Shown in pieces: positions 1,025-56,430 of a stretch of 64,000 nt of DNA. The stretch is from Solibacillus daqui. Its GTDB lineage: Bacteria > Bacillota > Bacilli > Bacillales_A > Planococcaceae. The notes beneath the pieces were generated by a model. It saw only the letters and a list, made by a program, of their open reading frames with translations, searched no databases and was not told the DNA's origin. A program made the position numbers and the translations under genes. How positions within the stretch are numbered: position 1 is the first letter of the stretch; each line of letters opens with the position of its first letter. The stretch lies in NCBI RefSeq assembly GCF_028747805.1, contig NZ_CP114887.1:3807001-3871000 (forward strand), given 5' to 3'.

Positions 1025-1236
1025 AAGGACTCGTCCAAAGCATTTACTTTTTTTAGCAACGTCTGTCTCATGAATTAATTATCCGCTGTAGGTTGCTTTT
1101 CGCGGTGGGCTTAAGTAAAGAACGAATGCTAAAAACGTCACGCCCTGTGACAACACATTCATGACTAGCTTCGTGCCAGCCTCCATTCTCAGCGCAAAGG
1201 GAGTGTCCCAGAATTGTTTCTAGGACACTCCCTTTG
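1025..1236 (-). repeat. Dispersed repeat family A, copy A3 (terminator hairpin plus conserved tail)
   Basis: Read on the minus strand it begins directly after the hflX stop codon with a 15-bp stem (GCAAAGGGAGTGTCC pairing with its complement, 1195-1236). It continues into a ~170-base tail that aligns along its length with the copy at 12059-12270. The first ~100 bases of the tail also align with the copy at 44883. Shared blocks include GAGGCT, GCACGAAGCTA and TTTTAGCATTCGTTCTT. The hairpin should terminate hflX. No protein is encoded. The rest of the gap from 832 to 1024 is AT-rich and holds only the likely promoter region of the peptide transporter. Confidence 0.8.
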
Positions 1237-1245
1237 CTTCGTAAA

Positions 1246-2659: not shown

Positions 2660-3820
2660 ATGGAATTTCAACAAATGAAAGAGCAGTTGGTCGCTCTTTT
2701 ACAAGATAAAACACTAATTCAAGCAACGATCAGTCAGCCTCGCCAAAAATCAAACGATATAAAACGTGTAAAATTAAAGCCAGTTGAATTACGCGGTGAT
2801 TATGTGATTCAGCTTGAATATCAATATGAGCGCATTTTAAAACACGAAAACTTACCACTTACCGATGTAGCAGCAAAGCTAGACGAATTATTTGAACATT
2901 TTCGCCAAGTACATGCAGAATTCACGGAGCAAACGGTGCAAATCCAATTATCAAAGAAAAACAAAGTGCTATGGAAATCAAATGCGAGCGCCTCAACAAA
3001 GCAAGTGAACTTATCACATAATCGTAAAAAACAATATTTGTTAGATGACTCACGCGTTCATCCGTTTTTAGTACGTTTAGGCGTGCAAGCAGAAGACGGC
3101 AAAATTAAAAAGCAAAAGTACGATAAATTTAAGCAAATTAATCGCTTCGTTGAATTCATTGACGATTCTCTAGCACATTTACCAAAGGATAAACAAATCC
3201 GTATTTTAGACTTTGGCTCAGGGAAATCGTATTTAACATTTGCGTTATACCATTATTTAAAAGTAGAAAAAGGGTTAAATATACGTGTTACTGGGTTAGA
3301 TTTAAAGAAAGAAGTTATTGAAGAATGTAATCGCATTGCACAGGATTTACGATATGATGATTTAGAATTTTTAGTTGGGGATATTAATGATTACAATGAT
3401 GAAACAGCGGTTGATATGGTTGTAACCCTTCATGCGTGTGACGTTGCAACCGATATGGCTTTAGCACGTGCTGTTAAATGGGGCGCGAAAGTGATTTTAA
3501 GTGTACCTTGCTGTCAGCATGAACTGAACCGACAACTTCAAGCCCCGGAATTATCGATTATGACACAGCACGGCTTAGTAAAAGAACGCTTTGCCGCACT
3601 TGCGACCGATTCAATCCGTGCCGAGCTGTTATCACTTGTTGGGTATGAAACACAGCTATTAGAGTTTATCGATATGGAAAATACGCCGAAAAACATTTTA
3701 ATTCGCGCCTACTTTACAGGAAAGCAGCCAACTGACGAACAACGTGCGAAATATGTCGAATTTGTGAGATTTTTAAACGCAAAACCATTTTTGCAAAAAG
3801 AATTACAAGATTTCTTATAA
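2660..3820 (+). CDS. Class I SAM-dependent methyltransferase (Methyltransf_32-like)
   Basis: A 386-residue cytoplasmic protein with a C-terminal Rossmann methyltransferase fold. The SAM-binding motif I is LDFGSGKSY near residue 182, followed by acidic motif II (TGLDLKKEV) and a VGDIND motif III-type segment. The N-terminal ~150 residues have no motif I recognise and may bind the substrate. The glycine-rich loop followed by Lys-Ser-Tyr resembles the Methyltransf_32 group, whose members often act on RNA or protein; the substrate here is unknown. A conserved-looking CC pair occurs in SVPCCQHEL near residue 280. An AAAGGCGG ribosome site precedes the ATG. It is a single-gene unit. Confidence 0.82.
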   Translation: MEFQQMKEQLVALLQDKTLIQATISQPRQKSNDIKRVKLKPVELRGDYVIQLEYQYERILKHENLPLTDVAAKLDELFEHFRQVHAEFTEQTVQIQLSKKNKVLWKSNASASTKQVNLSHNRKKQYLLDDSRVHPFLVRLGVQAEDGKIKKQKYDKFKQINRFVEFIDDSLAHLPKDKQIRILDFGSGKSYLTFALYHYLKVEKGLNIRVTGLDLKKEVIEECNRIAQDLRYDDLEFLVGDINDYNDETAVDMVVTLHACDVATDMALARAVKWGAKVILSVPCCQHELNRQLQAPELSIMTQHGLVKERFAALATDSIRAELLSLVGYETQLLEFIDMENTPKNILIRAYFTGKQPTDEQRAKYVEFVRFLNAKPFLQKELQDFL

Positions 3821-7877: not shown

Positions 7878-7891
7878 TAACGTAAAAAATG

Positions 7892-7930
7892 GGCTTGTCC
7901 GGAAATTGATTTCTGGACAAGCCCTGTTTT
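7892..7930. terminator. Bidirectional terminator between MMPL gene and small membrane protein
   Basis: The stem GGGCTTGTCC/GGACAAGCCC carries an inner GGAAA/TTTC extension and T-runs on both sides. It belongs to a recurring hairpin type in this window (GTCC..GGAAA..TTTC..GGAC). Confidence 0.85.
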
Positions 7931-12058: not shown

Positions 12059-12270
12059 TAAAAAAGGTCTTGTCTGGAAAGTGATTTCCGGACAAGACCT
12101 TTGCGCCGAGGTTAGAGGCTAGCACGAAGCTAATCATGAATACGCTATCACCGATCGTGACATTTTAGCATTCGTTCTTTACTTACGACCAACCTGATAG
12201 CAGCCAACTGCGGATAAATAACACATGAGTGGACACTGTCAAAAAGTAAACACTTTTTGGACAGCTCCCT
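12059..12270 (+). repeat. Dispersed repeat family A, copy A1
   Basis: The hairpin AAGGTCTTGTC...GACAAGACCTT (12064-12102) is followed by the conserved tail with GAGGCTAGCACGAAGCTA and TTTTAGCATTCGTTCTTTAC. Similarity to copy A3 continues to GCGGATAA and CATGAG near 12229. The far end holds a second hairpin (AAAAAGTAAACACTTTTT, 12240-12258) that can terminate the convergent yebC-type gene. Thus both ends carry terminator-like structures. Confidence 0.8.
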
Positions 12271-12279
12271 TTGAGCTTT

Positions 12280-12999
12280 TTATTCGCCTAAATCAGCATT
12301 ATGATAAACGCGTTGTACATCTTCTAAATCTTCTAACGCATCGATCATTTTTTCGAATTTTGCTAAGTCATCACCAGCTAATGCTACTTCTGTCATTGGT
12401 AACATCGCTAACTCTGCTACTGTAAATTCTTCAATACCAGCACCCTTGAATGCTTCTTGTGTTGCATGGAACTGCTCTGGCTCTACATAAACGATGATTG
12501 TGCCTTCTTCATCCATAATATCACGCATATCTAAATCTGCTTCCATTAAGATTTCAAGGATTTCATCTTCTGATTTGCCTTCAACCCCGAATACTGCAGT
12601 ATTTTGGAACATGTGCGCTGCTGAACCAGATACACCCATGTTACCGCCGTTTTTACCGAATGCTGCACGAACTTCTGAAGCTGTACGGTTTACGTTGTTT
12701 GTTAAAGCATCAACGATAACCATTGTACCTGCTACGCCGAAACCTTCGTAGCGTAGCTCGTCAAATTGCTCGTCGCCGCCACCTTTAGCTTTGTCAATTG
12801 CTTTTTCGATGATATGTTTTGGTACCGAATATGTTTTCGCACGCTCTAAAACGGTTTTTAATGCGCGGTTTGATTCTGGATTTGGTTCACCAGATTTTGC
12901 TGCTACATAAATTTCTCGACCAAACTTTGCATAGATACGACTGTTAGCTGCGTCTTTACCAGCCTTTTTGTCTTTAATGTTATTCCACTTACGACCCAT
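12280..12999 (-). CDS. YebC/PmpR family protein (YeeI-like)
   Basis: A 239-residue cytosolic protein of the YebC/TACO1 family. The N-terminus begins [17 protein letters not shown] and the diagnostic [11 protein letters not shown] and GNMGVSGS motifs follow at about residues 100-125. The MGRKWN opening resembles B. subtilis YeeI. Family members were described as transcription regulators and more recently as translation factors relieving ribosome stalls at proline-rich stretches; which role applies here cannot be read from sequence. The start is ATG at 12999, since the upstream GTG lies inside the AGAGAGTG ribosome site. Monocistronic. Confidence 0.93.
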
Positions 13000-13223
13000 T
13001 TTGTTCACTCTCTTTCGATATTCTATTGATAACGTTATATAAAACGAAAAAATATTTTTTAACTTAATTATTATACTTGAACTCTAAAAAAAAGTGAAAT
13101 TACTTAACATAAAATGGACTTTAGTTGAAGAAATTAAATAACTATTATGCGTGTGGTAAAGTCTCTTTCAATACTGATACTTGCAAATTAATATTCTATA
13201 TGTTAATAATTGAATTGTAAAAT

Positions 13224-26034: not shown

Positions 26035-26220
26035 TATCAATTACACCTTGGCGTGATTGTGTCCAGATTTTTTTCGAGCCTTCTCGAAAAACTCCTCTAA
26101 AAATCTGTGACATTCGCCAGGGGTATTGGGCCAACACGATGTTGGTTACTTAAGCTTTGCCTCAAGACGCAGCGCTCTTAGCCTAAGTTGATTAATACAA
26201 TCAGAGTTTGAAACCCCGCT
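26035..26220 (-). repeat. Dispersed repeat family C, copy C1
   Basis: From 26035 the plus strand reads TATCAATTACACCTTGGCGT, then AGATTTTTTTCGAGCCT and later TGTGACATTCGCCAGGGG. The same blocks occur in the same order and spacing at 45503-45594. The remainder to 26220 contains a CCAACA-CGA-TGTTGG hairpin (26131-26145) not shared with the second copy. It fills the gap between the SDR stop and the deacetylase start, with no gene inside. Confidence 0.65.
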
Positions 26221-26242
26221 GAAGCAAGGTAATAGTTATCTA

Positions 26243-27001: not shown

Positions 27002-27131
27002 GAAAAAACCCCCTTATCAGAAATTTTTACTACAAATAGCATTTCGACAATTAGATAGTAAATTCCTTGAAAGTTTATTCTACTTTTCATTAAGAATGTG
27101 TCTAAAACTTACACGTAGCTAGCCATAAGAA

Positions 27132-27175
27132 AAGGACTTGTCCGGAAAGTAATTTCTGGACAAGCCCTTAAATAT
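27132..27175. terminator. Terminator of the NERD-domain gene
   Basis: AAGGACTTGTCC with inner GGAAA/TTTC pairs with GGACAAGCCCTT and has T-rich flank on the minus strand. It is the same hairpin type as at 7892 and 12064. Confidence 0.8.
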
Positions 27176-27858
27176 TAAACAGACACTGTCTTATCTGCTT
27201 TTAAAATAGCATTCTTTTTACTCATTGAGCCCTCCAATGTAACGAATAGTGTTTGAATGTCTGTTTCGGAAATGACGTTCCCCTTTATAGAGCTCGTCCA
27301 CTTTTTTAGATCTTTCATTTTTAACACTTCTACATTGTCTGATTGAATTTCAATTTGCTGAAATGAGCAATCATCCGTAAATAACACAACCGATTGGAAC
27401 GCATGTTCATCAACTTCAGCTAGCTGATCTCGTAAGGCAAACATAAGACGCTTCGTTTCATGAATTGGATTACTAAATGTACGACTTTTTCCCTTATGTA
27501 ATAACTCTTTCCATTCGTGATCACGTTCACGACCATTAATCCAACCTGATTTTGCTCTAATGTTCATTACATAGATACCCGACTCATGTAATAACATGGC
27601 ATCAATTGTTTTTAGTGCATCGTTTACTGGTACTTGTATATTCACCAAAATTTTATGTGTGCCATTTACTTGATCTAACACACCCACAAGTTTGTACAGA
27701 GTACGGATTTTTTTACTAGTTAACAAATCTAAATAGGAATAACTCGTCAATTTGTAAAACGTTGAATTATCATGACGGTATATATTCACCATAAAATAAC
27801 CGATAGTAAAAATTACTAATATTATTAGTAGTAGCGTCACAGAGCCCACTCCTTGCAT
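27175..27858 (-). CDS. NERD domain-containing membrane protein
   Basis: A 227-residue protein with an N-terminal helix (about residues 5-25) and a NERD (nuclease-related) domain at about residues 60-170. Visible landmarks are the strand pair IDAMLLHESGIYVMNIRA, the GWINGRERDHEW loop and NPIHETKRLMFALRDQL. These match the pattern in which an acidic residue and a Lys form a nuclease-like core, but the usual active-site K of the K-G/S-G segment is read here as KSGW. Function is unknown; nuclease activity is only proposed for the family. Single gene. Confidence 0.82.
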   Translation of the reverse strand: MQGVGSVTLLLIILVIFTIGYFMVNIYRHDNSTFYKLTSYSYLDLLTSKKIRTLYKLVGVLDQVNGTHKILVNIQVPVNDALKTIDAMLLHESGIYVMNIRAKSGWINGRERDHEWKELLHKGKSRTFSNPIHETKRLMFALRDQLAEVDEHAFQSVVLFTDDCSFQQIEIQSDNVEVLKMKDLKKWTSSIKGNVISETDIQTLFVTLEGSMSKKNAILKADKTVSV

Positions 27859-30452: not shown

Positions 30453-30600
30453 CATTAAGGGACAGTAAGACGCCCACTTCAAACTGGCAAGTGTTAAGAC
30501 AGCTAAGTGGGCGATCCAATGTCTCTAAAAGCCCGATTGGTGAAGACTAATGCTCGGTGAGGGCTGAGGAACCTCCCCCTCCATCGAGCAAAGTTTCACT
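30453..30600 (+). repeat. Dispersed repeat family B, copy B1
   Basis: The element begins CATTAAGGGACAGTAAGACG and ends GAGCAAAGTTTCACTTTAT, abutting the DinB stop codon. Both ends recur in inverse orientation at 46053-46148. Its centre can fold as CGCCCACTT/AAGTGGGCG enclosing a TGGCA/TGTTA hairpin; a second stem (GCTCGGTGAGGG with its partner ending CGAGC, 30553-30590) is missing half in the other copy. No reading frame. Confidence 0.72.
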
Positions 30601-31071
30601 TTATTGCATTTCTTTTGTTGGTCCCATTACAGGTGGTACGTTTAATCCAGCTTGACGCAATAATACCGTCATTTGTCCAACGTGATGCGTTTGATGCGTA
30701 ATTACTACGCGTAATAAGGCGCCGCGTTTCATTGTACCGCCAAATGCCGGTACTTCTTCAAGAAGCTGCTCTTCTGTCAAAGATGCTACTTCTTTTTTAT
30801 AAGCTTCGCGCACTTCTTCATACATTTCTACGATTTCAGCCATCGTTTCAGGTTGTTCCATATCTGGACCAGGTGCTGGAATTTGTAAGCCAGCAAAGTG
30901 ACCAAATGCTCCTGCCACTTTAACTAAATGCCATGATAGCCAACCTAAAGAGTTATGGCCTTCCACAATGGCCACTTCCATCTTGTCATTCGGAATTGCC
31001 TGCATTACTTTTAATGCTCCTTTAGATGCATTTGCCCATTCTTGAACAAAATCTTCTGCTATACGATACAT
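30601..31071 (-). CDS. DinB family protein
   Basis: A 156-residue four-helix protein of the DinB/YfiT superfamily, metal-dependent enzymes often involved in thiol (for example bacillithiol) transfer. The metal-binding histidines are visible as SWHLVKVAG near residue 43 and HQTHHVGQM near residue 128. The start is ATG 31071, nine bases after AAGGGGG; a longer reading has no ribosome site. The gene is downstream of the glycosylase but separated by about 70 bases. The reaction is unknown; bacillithiol-S-transferase activity is a family-level possibility. Confidence 0.85.
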   Translation of the reverse strand: MYRIAEDFVQEWANASKGALKVMQAIPNDKMEVAIVEGHNSLGWLSWHLVKVAGAFGHFAGLQIPAPGPDMEQPETMAEIVEMYEEVREAYKKEVASLTEEQLLEEVPAFGGTMKRGALLRVVITHQTHHVGQMTVLLRQAGLNVPPVMGPTKEMQ

Positions 31072-44882: not shown

Positions 44883-45045
44883 AAAAAGGAGTGTCCTAGA
44901 AGTATTTCTGGGACACTCCTTTTTCGCCGAGGATGGAGGCTAGCACGAAGCTATTCGTGAATGATTTGTCATAGGATGTGACGGTTTTAGCATTCGTTCT
45001 TCCCTTCTGGCCACCGCAGAAGCACCGCTTAAAGCGCATTATTAC
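44883..45045 (+). repeat. Dispersed repeat family A, copy A2
   Basis: The hairpin AAAAAGGAGTGTCC/GGACACTCCTTTTT with an AGAA/TTCT extension (44883-44924) is followed by CGCCGAGGATGGAGGCTAGC, ACGAAGCTA, GTCAT-N5-GTGAC and TTTTAGCATTCGTTCTT. After about 45005 similarity to the other copies fades. It sits in the gene-free 44570-45121 interval, whose other content is the ahpC promoter region and a cysteine-free AT-rich stretch without a supported frame. Confidence 0.8.
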
Positions 45046-45121
45046 TACACGAGGTTTTCACTCTCACGCTATTTTATTTGATTCTCGCTTAAGTGTATTT
45101 TTGTTCAATAATTGAGAAAAG

Positions 45122-45355: not shown

Positions 45356-45362
45356 ATACCGA

Positions 45363-45485
45363 TTAGTTTGTAAATGATAAAACAGCATTTGAGTACTTCG
45401 ATAACATTTTAGCAGCCTCATTTTTTGTTGTGTACTCGAACATACGAATATCGTTTGGATTATTGAAAATTGTTACTACCCACAT
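45363..45485 (-). CDS. 40-residue small protein, tandem paralogue 1
   Basis: A 40-residue protein that begins MWVVTIFNNPNDIRMFEYTT and continues KNEAAKMLSKYSNAVLSF. It is about 80% identical to the product of 45619-45741. The ATG follows AAGGAGCG. The pattern (MWVV-x-F start, MFEYTT, then an amphipathic helix with Ala and Tyr) looks like a folded beta-beta-alpha mini-protein. I do not recognise a named family. It is separated from its paralogue by a family C repeat and ends at the hairpin at 45315. Confidence 0.72.
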   Translation of the reverse strand: MWVVTIFNNPNDIRMFEYTTKNEAAKMLSKYSNAVLSFTN

Positions 45486-45502
45486 GTTTTTTCGCTCCTT
45501 TT

Positions 45503-45594
45503 TATCAATTACGTCTTTACGTAATAACGTCGAGATTTTTTTCAAGCCTACAAAAAAATGTCGCTTAAAACCTATGACAGCCGCCGGGGGATTG
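45503..45594 (-). repeat. Dispersed repeat family C, copy C2
   Basis: The plus strand reads TATCAATTACGTCTTTACGT, AGATTTTTTTCAAGCCT and CTATGACAGCCGCCGGGGG, matching copy C1 block by block. ATTACGT-CTTT-ACGTAAT is a perfect hairpin; in C1 the stem keeps six of seven pairs. The element occupies most of the gap between the two 40-residue genes. Confidence 0.65.
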
Positions 45595-45618
45595 ACCCCA
45601 CGCAAAAGCAAGTAAAAA

Positions 45619-45741
45619 TTAGTTTGTGTATGATAAAACGGCGTTTGTATATTTTGCTAATTGTAAAGCTGCTTCATTTTTTGTTGTGTATTCGAACATA
45701 CGAATATCATTTTGATTGTTAAATACTGTTACTACCCACAT
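45619..45741 (-). CDS. 40-residue small protein, tandem paralogue 2
   Basis: A 40-residue protein starting MWVVTVFNNQNDIRMFEYTT and ending AKYTNAVLSYTN, closely matching paralogue 1, with no gap in alignment. AAGGAGAAA precedes the ATG by about nine bases. It stands upstream in the tandem pair, so the likely order of transcription is this gene, the repeat, then 45485-45363. Conservation of every aromatic residue between the copies argues that both are translated and functional. Family and role unknown. Confidence 0.72.
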   Translation of the reverse strand: MWVVTVFNNQNDIRMFEYTTKNEAALQLAKYTNAVLSYTN

Positions 45742-46052
45742 GTTTCATTTCTCCTTTTTTATAAAGCTATATAATAAAATTGTTCATTCTCTAATGACAT
45801 TTGCAACTTGTTGTATAACACCTTACTTGACTCTCATTCTACTCCGATTTTTAGAAAAAGAAAGTAATATATTTAGCTTTTCACAATGTGTTCAAAAATA
45901 AACCGCTTTCTTTGAACACTTTGTGACACATGAATTTTCAACGAATAAAACGCAAATTAGAGAAAAATTCCACAAGCGAGCAACTACTGTTGTAGTACAG
46001 AAGAAAAGCGGTTCAAAACGATTTTTAAAGCTTCATATTTTAGGTGTATGTA

Positions 46053-46148
46053 TAAAATGAAACTTTGCTCGGTGGGGAGTTCTCATTGCACACTTAGCTT
46101 AATCCTGACACTTGTCAGTTGAAGTGGACGTCTTACTGTCCCTTAATG
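46053..46148 (-). repeat. Dispersed repeat family B, copy B2
   Basis: Read on the minus strand it starts CATTAAGGGACAGTAAGACG and ends GAGCAAAGTTTCATTTTAT, as in B1, but lacks about 50 internal bases. The CTGACA-AG-TGTCAG hairpin inside GTCCACTT/AAGTGTGC is preserved. It lies just upstream of the yjdI promoter region. The rest of the 45742-46052 interval is AT-rich with no supported gene. Confidence 0.7.
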
Positions 46149-47450: not shown

Positions 47451-47482
47451 AAGATTCATAGCAAATGACAACTACATATTTT

Positions 47483-47580
47483 CTTATCAAGAGAGATGGA
47501 GGGACAGGCCCTTTGAAGTCTCGGCAGCAGCTATACATAGCGTTGTGCCAAATCCTGCAAGTATACACTTGGAAGATAAG
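47483..47580 (+). ncRNA. SAM-I riboswitch (S-box) controlling metNIQ
   Basis: CTTATC (47483-47488) closes P1 with GATAAG (47575-47580). Between them stand AGAGA, GGAGGGACAGGCCCTTTGAA and TCGGCAGCAG, the conserved core of the SAM-I class. With S-adenosylmethionine bound, P1 forms and the downstream terminator folds; without it, AAGATA can pair with TATCTT to give an antiterminator. The context (methionine transporter) is exactly as expected. Confidence 0.95.
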
Positions 47581-47603
47581 AGCAAAAGTAATGGTAACTA
47601 TTC

Positions 47604-47643: not shown

Positions 47644-47696
47644 TTGTCTCAAGAAGGTTTCGTATCGAGCATTTTATAGTAAAGGTGGGTTTTGAA

Positions 47697-55651: not shown

Positions 55652-55716
55652 CGTGCTAGCCTCCATCCTCTGCGCAAAGGGAGTGTCCCAGAAATTCTTC
55701 TCGGACACTCCCTTTT
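55652..55716 (-). repeat. Dispersed repeat family A, truncated copy A4
   Basis: On the minus strand the hairpin AAAGGGAGTGTCC/GGACACTCCCTTT (55676-55715) is followed by GCGCAGAGGATGGAGGCTAG and CACG, then diverges. It directly follows the DUF1648 gene's stop and serves as its terminator. Confidence 0.75.
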
Positions 55717-56197: not shown

Positions 56198-56430
56198 TTA
56201 TTGAACGAAAAGACCTGCGATTTTATCTTTGTCGTCAAATGTTATGGTAAATACACGTTTTTCGTTACTATATTGTGCAACTAGTACAACCACTTTCATG
56301 CCGTCCTTTTCTTCAACCGTAGATTTTTCCACCTTTTCAAACAAACCTTAACTACTTACACTATTTTAAAATTTGCTGAAATGCCCTTAAAATTACTGTT
56401 ATTACCTCCGCAATCGTTGCGAAAGAATCG
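56198..56430 (-). pseudogene. DUF3887-like gene remnant
   Basis: The minus strand shows two protein-like pieces in different frames. One reads SFATIAEVITVILRAFQQIL and stops; the other reads GLFEKVEKSTVEEKDGMK, continues VVVLVAQYSNEKRVFTITF and ends DKDKIAGLFVQ. The end matches the C-terminal pattern of DUF3887 domains (DxDGKIAGLFxQ), and the first piece fits the preceding helix. No intact start remains. It lies directly downstream of a gene whose N-terminus looks DUF3887-like, so it may be a decayed relative. Confidence 0.5.

Follow-up and report, generated by a model that had tools for sequence, protein, structure and literature searches.

The RF01690 core as a separable module of probably mobile repeats at transcription terminators in Solibacillus daqui

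Repeats in the window

The window is a stretch of 64,000 nucleotides of Solibacillus daqui (contig NZ_CP114887.1, positions 3,807,001 to 3,871,000). In it, the minus-strand genes hflX (1246-2523) and yebC (12280-13008) each adjoin, at their 3′ ends, a full-length copy of a dispersed repeat that we call type A. Copy 1 (1025..1237), at hflX, lies on the plus strand in the orientation of the Rfam family RF01690, opposite to the minus strand given for it in a preliminary description of this DNA; copy 2 (12059..12270), at yebC, lies on the minus strand in RF01690 orientation. Copy 1 comprises a 5′ hairpin region (approximately 1025..1064), an RF01690 core at 1113..1179 (plus strand, cmscan 60.2 bits), in which P1 with an inner P2 is followed by P3 and the hairpins carry pentaloops, and a terminator-like 3′ hairpin at 1196..1235 (AAAGGGAGTGTCC..GGACACTCCCTTT). 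The corresponding features of copy 2 are a core at 12119..12184 (minus strand, 39.7 bits) and a 3′ hairpin at 12062..12101.

Two shorter type A copies are present. Copy 3 (44883..45065, outer end approximate, minus strand) has the 3′ hairpin and a core at 44940..45006 (minus strand, 43.2 bits) without the 5′ hairpin, and its counterpart in MA9, a strain of the same species, is shorter still. The copy at 55652..55716 (plus strand) is truncated to the end of P3, the linker, and the 3′ hairpin. The preliminary description had listed a family of four copies (12059-12270, 44883-45045, 1025-1236, and 55652-55716), and all four were found at these positions. It had missed a fourth RF01690 match at 26131..26197 (minus strand, 50.7 bits), which is located in a different repeat, a type B element at 26036..26228 (minus strand; CTTGCTTCAGC..GTAATTGAT). 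The four matches in the window thus score between 39.7 and 60.2 bits, all above the cut-off of 35. In addition, two solo hairpins of the 3′-hairpin type, without a core, sit at ORF ends: one at 7883..7925, directly after an ORF end (7877), and one at 27126..27168, just beyond the end of an ORF on the minus strand (27175-27858).

Several other elements were seen along the way. Beside copy 3 lies a near-tandem 142-nt repeat (45362-45503 and 45618-45759, 81% identical), and a second dispersed repeat occurs as inverted copies at 30453-30604 and 46052-46148, with blocks (CATTAAGGGACAGTAAGACGCCCACTTCAA; CCATCGAGCAAAGTTTCACTTTAT) that are 97% and 92% complementary. A SAM riboswitch (RF00162, 90.4 bits) at 47481-47582 on the plus strand precedes a series of ORFs starting at 47685. 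Outside the window, a piece of the left flank of the type A site at 3651712 (GGGACAATAGGTTGAGCCACTGTCCC..) is itself another short dispersed repeat, with matches in MA9 at C1:1197753, C1:538255, C1:421767, and four more places.

Type A anatomy and pairing of the core

The conserved tail noted in the preliminary description is real but not new, being RF01690 (Bacillaceae-1 RNA) read on the opposite strand; the core belongs to this family both by its score above the cut-off and by its P1/P2/P3 consensus structure with covariation. The combination of a terminator hairpin and a tail, which had been taken as the unit of the family, holds for type A, but the RF01690 repeats as a whole share only the core of about 67 nt. 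An alignment of 34 type A copies (33 that clustered together plus the window copy at 12119) defines a unit of about 205 nt, in which a 5′ hairpin and a stem region are followed by the core, a linker (CCTCCATCCTCGGCGC), and a 3′ hairpin (GGGNNTGTCCCAGAA..TTCTCGGACANNCCC). The 5′ hairpin occurs as two sequence variants, GGCTGTCCAAAAAG..CTTTTTGGACAG or GCTGCGCGAAAAG..CTTCTCGCGCAG, both of which are paired, so that pairing has been kept despite the change in sequence. A simple search found a 3′ hairpin of at least 13 Watson-Crick pairs in all 34 copies, with the proviso that the match in copy 2731949 is not the usual hairpin and that the match extends past the hairpin in a few others.

The 3′ hairpin passes a terminator test in the outward direction in 31 of the 34 copies and in the inward direction in 17, and the 5′ hairpin passes on its own strand in only 6; the test is lax, its lax version being passed by 94 of 300 random 130-nt stretches. 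With these outward 5′ and inward 3′ counts, the idea that the transcript of each strand crosses the whole element to the far hairpin was dropped. A palindromic pattern for the 3′ hairpin detects 42 sites genome-wide (none with the reversed control), 22 of which adjoin an RF01690 match and 20 of which do not. Three of these core-free sites lie in core-less type A copies, one of them decayed, and one lies in the truncated window copy; the remaining 16, including the two at ORF ends in the window, seem to be solo hairpins. Using rough ORF calls and leaving aside the 5 of 34 copies in which an ORF overlaps the core, we found 15 of the 29 scorable type A copies flanked by convergent ORFs, versus 24 of 125 background pairs (Fisher p = 0.0007), and 1 of the 29 flanked by divergent ORFs. 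This bias fits either insertion at gene ends or survival only there.

The base pairing of the core is strongly maintained. Over the 66 distinct cores among 72 aligned from this and other genomes, 16 of the 17 pairs, distributed over all three helices, show two-sided changes; 207 cells are changed on both sides versus 69.7 in shuffled alignments, and 91.5% of paired cells can pair versus 73.2% after shuffling. None of 500 shuffles reached the observed value on any measure, and slid controls were far lower. The compensating changes described earlier in the tail are therefore confirmed, down to the three inner stems GTCAC/GTGAC, GTCAT/GTGAC, and TCAC/GTGA. They had been read as arguing for a folded RNA, and on this point the data are less favorable: mismatches in the stems, counted without the outermost P1 pair, are G-T in 27 cells and A-C in 37 (p = 0.26), which shows no strand preference; with that pair, which contributes 24 A-C cells, the counts are 27 and 61. 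Since G-T and A-C mismatches are about equally frequent, the pairing may be maintained in the DNA itself or on both strands, and the compensating changes need not be a sign of a functional RNA. Copy 1 folds better than its shuffles on both strands, with z = −6.4 on the strand read in the preliminary description versus −3.8 on the other, and the 3′ hairpin contributes to both values.

These data also bear on a proposal that Bacillaceae-1 is a regulatory RNA that sequesters CsrA, with its multiple copies titrating the protein. The available part of PMC4333381 puts forward the reverse complement of RF01690 as such a sponge and reports two strong matches to the CsrA motif in it. The stronger folding of copy 1 on the strand of the preliminary description would agree with this, as would the finding of csrA in all 23 RF01690-bearing genomes among 41 searched, including one csrA match in the S. 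daqui genome itself. However, csrA is also present in 11 of the 18 genomes without RF01690, and 15 of the 41 genomes belong to one genus. The GGA trinucleotide is an essential part of a CsrA site. Among the 75 full-length cores (18 of 93 cores that are not 67 nt long were left out), GGA is found in neither loop in 39, in one loop in 33, and in both loops in 3. The core pentaloops are mostly RTCST; the commonest in both hairpins, ATCGT, reads ACGAT on the CsrA-motif strand. With 39 of 75 cores lacking GGA in both loops, CsrA sequestration cannot be the general role of the core here, and a range from 3 to at least 94 copies within one genus would be odd for a titrating RNA. We consider this explanation very improbable.

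Distribution, hosts, and comparison of sites

The dispersed family at terminator positions described in the window is real. A covariance-model search of the S. daqui genome gave at least 93 RF01690 matches at E ≤ 0.001, 89 of them above the cut-off, from 150 scored out of 448 candidates; the window copy at 12119-12184 is missing from this list, so that 93 is a lower bound. Type A accounts for 34 cores. BLAST with the full type A element returned 53 places in the genome, some of which consist of a hairpin alone or are one hairpin matched on each strand, and BLAST with the type B repeat returned 61. Taking the origin at position 1 and the terminus at about 2.05 Mb, the presumed leading strand holds 61 of 94 copies. 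Strain MA9 has 101 matches, and 15 Solibacillus genomes, searched with stricter filters and with at most 94 candidates scored per genome (so that the top value is a lower bound), have 90, 26, at least 94, 42, 8, 19, 8, 28, 39, 89, 13, 16, 18, 7, and 3. RF01690 was found in 8 of 26 relatives outside Solibacillus and in 6 of 398 genomes drawn from the phylum, the S. daqui genome included, with 12 candidates scored per genome listed; a Bacillus subtilis control for the search was positive. These copy-number swings, together with the strain-specific presence and absence described below, support the non-autonomous mobile nature that had been suggested for the family.

The core occurs in three host types in the S. 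daqui genome (A, B/C, and D) that cluster apart. Type B has the layout CTTGATTCAGC..GCTGAAT-core-AAGCCCCGGCGGATGTCACAG..GGCGTAATTGAT; in type C, the core stands at the apex of the 3′ hairpin of the same repeat, so that B and C are positions in one repeat, and in B+C tandems two cores lie about 110 nt apart. In full-length type B copies, such as L083:6130-6540 on the minus strand, the 5′ part is reminiscent of the right ends of tnpB elements: a stretch resembling GCAAAGCGACAGGTACAGAAGT comes first, and a hairpin resembling CCTACTTCTATAAG..GGGGGATGAAT stands behind it. Type D is a GC-rich repeat with a core that is also found in other Solibacillus genomes. The top-scoring copies in four other Solibacillus species are type B in one (G002) and type D in three (G001, G004, and G006). 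In two other genera, the core lies directly before 16S rRNA, in the leader (L203:1501-1567, L208:1501-1567, and L209:1501-1567): in one genome (G037), both of the two matches viewed out of three are so placed, and in another (G232), one of the two viewed out of five. The two 16S leaders of S. daqui that were viewed contain no core.

Conversely, each host type also exists without the core. Core-less type A copies lie at 1658771 and 2839379, with a decayed one near 2764, and core-less type B copies at 2300833, 1220483, and 3780420, all in the S. daqui genome; type D without a core was seen in MA9. With boundaries set by eye, the bases that stand in place of the absent core are AATTTCCA in A, CAAGTTA in B, and AAAGCGTC in D; in type C, they are TTCGAT or TCAAG at three sites and 16 nt at a fourth. 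The core is thus a separable module, occurring in several repeat types and present or absent on its own within shared elements.

We compared 31 of the 34 type A sites with MA9 by means of joined 70-nt flanks (3 tandem or nested sites were dropped), reading nine of the 31 base by base. The element is present in MA9 at 23 sites, 22 of them by spacing and an RF01690 match and one (2666889) by alignment. At 280640 and 2675037, MA9 has a plain terminator in the exact slot between the same flanks, and at 1452538 and 1365086 the place of the element is taken by other DNA with a terminator in it. The terminator test was passed at each of these four sites, at 1365086 on the opposite strand. At 722106 and 1225510, MA9 has the same type A element minus the core. 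At 3851940 its element is truncated at the 5′ end, and the left flank of 3170172 was not found in it.

In the reverse direction, the truncated window copy at 55652-55716 corresponds to a complete type A element in MA9 (C42:115181; L221 about 3095-3304) that is preceded by about 1.4 kb of extra DNA, and the S. daqui genome has therefore probably undergone a deletion here. Deletions within copies, as at 3851940 in MA9 and at 55652 in the window, mean that some absences may be losses. The truncated window copy and the MA9 counterpart of the copy at 44883 (L149) are both cut in the P3 loop region, leaving the 3′ part; this region is possibly a recurrent breakpoint in type A copies. Near the copy at 55652, MA9 contig C42 also has about 2.4 kb of extra DNA (L221 3929-6369) opposite a 9-nt gap at window positions of about 56341-56351.

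For types B and C, 14 sites were compared. MA9 has four clean empty sites, at 308945 (191 nt), 3496664 (193 nt), 1435019 (190 nt), and 3787894 (305 nt); the junctions at the last two are ambiguous by 2 nt, and at 3787894 the flank bases also differ slightly. The MA9 copy at C22:74411 corresponds to an empty site in the S. daqui genome, with a junction that is ambiguous by a few nucleotides. None of these five empty sites shows a target duplication beyond a possible 2 nt or the junction ambiguity. Among the 14 sites, three are core-only differences, 3783136 is filled, and 2747352 is rearranged; at 817123, MA9 lacks 79 nt after the core. Site 1183466 was rejected as a clean empty site as MA9 retains the first 40 nt or so of the element, as was C1:1017147, where the S. 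daqui genome retains both ends; 2775538, 2786753, and 3775659 were left unused for a partial match or a position off the compared stretch.

The core alone is absent from MA9 at 1281130, 1357590, 2050923, and 3386201 in the B/C set, which with the type A sites 722106 and 1225510 makes six loci, all of type A or C. These six were found starting from S. daqui copies, and the reverse direction was hardly sampled. Homologous recombination between copies could account for such presence and absence, with cores being swapped by gene conversion and no movement of the module by itself. Dozens of related arms are available in one genome, as the BLAST counts for A and B show, and in each of the six cases the element concerned has arms in common with other copies; within types, moreover, cores are more alike than arms, as in 17 type C copies with a similarity of 0.913 for the core versus 0.639 and 0.787 for the arms. 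The core, however, is also found in the separately clustered hosts A, B/C, and D and in 16S leaders, and conversion among similar copies cannot account for how it first reached each of them. Within each host type, copy-to-copy recombination is a serious rival, and as an account of the swaps in general we regard it as quite possible, while giving it less than an even chance.

The sites at yebC and hflX were also viewed in 14 other Solibacillus species. Only the S. daqui genome and MA9 carry the element at yebC; within the 520 nt viewed, each of the 14 others lacks it and shows a terminator. At hflX, where 330 nt were viewed, the full element is again confined to these two genomes. A terminator-like hairpin is found there in 13 of the 14 others; in G013 and G011, the closest of them by HflX identity, the hairpin is A-like and no other part of the element accompanies it. 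The hairpins at both sites have 10 to 19 pairs by the lax test. At the sites compared, then, type A occupies the position that an intrinsic terminator holds in a related strain or species. Judged from these two sites, it would most simply have arrived in the line leading to the S. daqui genome and MA9, displacing terminators at yebC and hflX.

Such positions could also be occupied by a selected 3′ RNA module, a long terminator plus structured 3′ UTR that stabilizes or processes transcripts and has spread by selection and not as a parasite. The bias toward gene ends and convergent ORFs, the terminator-like 3′ hairpin, and the strongly maintained pairing are what such a module would show. Nearly all congeners, however, manage with a plain terminator after yebC and hflX, the presence of the element varies between strains, and core-less forms exist, all of which makes this explanation unlikely.

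Mobilization and interpretation

Type B inserts cleanly, mostly after TTTAA and without target duplication. The motif stands on the left in 22 of the 35 copies in which a 5′ end was found (12 further copies had none found), with position −6 unconserved; of the five empty sites, two have it exactly at the junction and a third has it at a distance of 2 nt. Palindromes lie near both ends, at the 3′ end as judged by eye and at the 5′ end as folded for two copies. Insertion at a fixed motif, absence of target duplication, and end palindromes are features of IS200/IS605 elements and their PATE derivatives, according to the portions of PMC7290912 and PMC3119063 available to us. Type A behaves differently: it replaces terminator DNA, clean insertion is not seen, and its alignment shows no fixed left motif such as TTTAA. 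Remnants of the former terminator's arms on both sides of type A were expected, but as a general claim this was dropped (19/34 scorable copies; 2679 of 5000 permutations as high); such arms are seen clearly at 1452538 and perhaps at 3480572, both with a score of 9.

A strict assignment to REP/RAYT-type or IS200/IS605-derived palindromic elements mobilized by a Y1 (HUH) transposase would draw on these type B features. No gene for a Y1 transposase (PF01797), and hence no Y1/RAYT gene, was found in the S. daqui genome or in MA9, although 9 of 16 Solibacillus genomes have one, and when the A and B repeats were compared by BLAST with 10 Y1-transposase loci from congeners, the sole match was 19 nt long (E = 0.17). 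With type A showing neither the motif nor clean insertion, we find the strict assignment rather doubtful. In the accessible text on Haloquadratum (PMC3119063), strain-specific insertions are described even though the IS200-type transposons of one strain are all pseudogenes. Among the 53 type A and 61 type B places in the S. daqui genome, no pair of ends around a gene was noticed that would mark an autonomous partner. The target duplication expected of a MITE was likewise not seen, with at most a possible 2 nt and none at the type A sites read.

The closest parallels are parallels of behavior, and we claim no kinship for them. PATE of the archaeon Haloquadratum walsbyi, as described in the consulted part of PMC3119063, has terminal palindromes, no target duplication, and no transposase of its own, and type B is alike in these respects. 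SMR-A of the same organism, in the same part of that paper, is about 110 nt long, causes no target duplication, lies within PATE palindromes, and has an unknown mobilizer; the core resembles it in being small, in lacking target duplications, and in lying within the palindromes of mobile repeats (types A, B, and C). SMR-A, however, has terminal inverted repeats and the core has none, its repeats being internal (P1) with a separate hairpin (P3), and where the core is present, a few target bases are missing. Pneumococcal BOX elements are, in an excerpt of PMC3049150, modular repeats with boxB absent or multiple that fold, spread like parasites, and affect transcription; unlike in BOX, the core occurs in more than one kind of host repeat, and type A is positioned at terminators. 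The same excerpt describes SPRITE as a terminator-like repeat, like type A, and the available part of PMC3446304 describes the bcr repeats of Bacillus cereus as intergenic, with about half of the copies transcribed and often located in UTRs. Compared by description, neither SPRITE nor bcr has an exchangeable module in these parts of PMC3049150 and PMC3446304. A search of open-licence papers on Bacillaceae-1 turned up no report of its mobility.

Taken together, the observations lead us to propose that the feature is probably a mobile repeat, modular and non-autonomous, whose landing sites are transcription terminators, with the RF01690 core as an exchangeable module; the interpretation of the preliminary description is thus partly supported overall. 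Whole elements would move as mobile DNA by means of a machinery provided in trans, and the terminator-shaped 3′ hairpin would plausibly take over termination for the preceding gene. The core may come and go within hairpins through insertion or through conversion from copy to copy. Pairing would be kept because folding is needed for spread, for termination, or for both, and not necessarily because the sequence acts as a regulatory RNA. A further step, from a module that is present or absent to one that moves by itself, we put forward tentatively as possible: RF01690 would not be an sRNA gene but a mobile module of about 67 nt with two hairpins. It would enter other hairpins, be they at the ends of mobile repeats, in palindromic repeats of other kinds, or in the 16S rRNA leader, would take the place of a few bases there without duplicating the target, and would be carried along by host repeats that take over terminators.

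For RF01690, which has been on record since 2010 as an RNA without a known function and is catalogued as an sRNA gene, a testable other identity emerges, that of an exchangeable module of mobile repeats: what is known here from sequence alone is a module within larger repeats, absent from some copies. Covariation by itself is no proof of a regulatory RNA where a sequence spreads as folded DNA. The repeats also offer a case of mobile DNA that takes over the terminators of host genes, and as pairs of strains differ at defined sites, the direction, rate, and mechanism of this process would be open to measurement.
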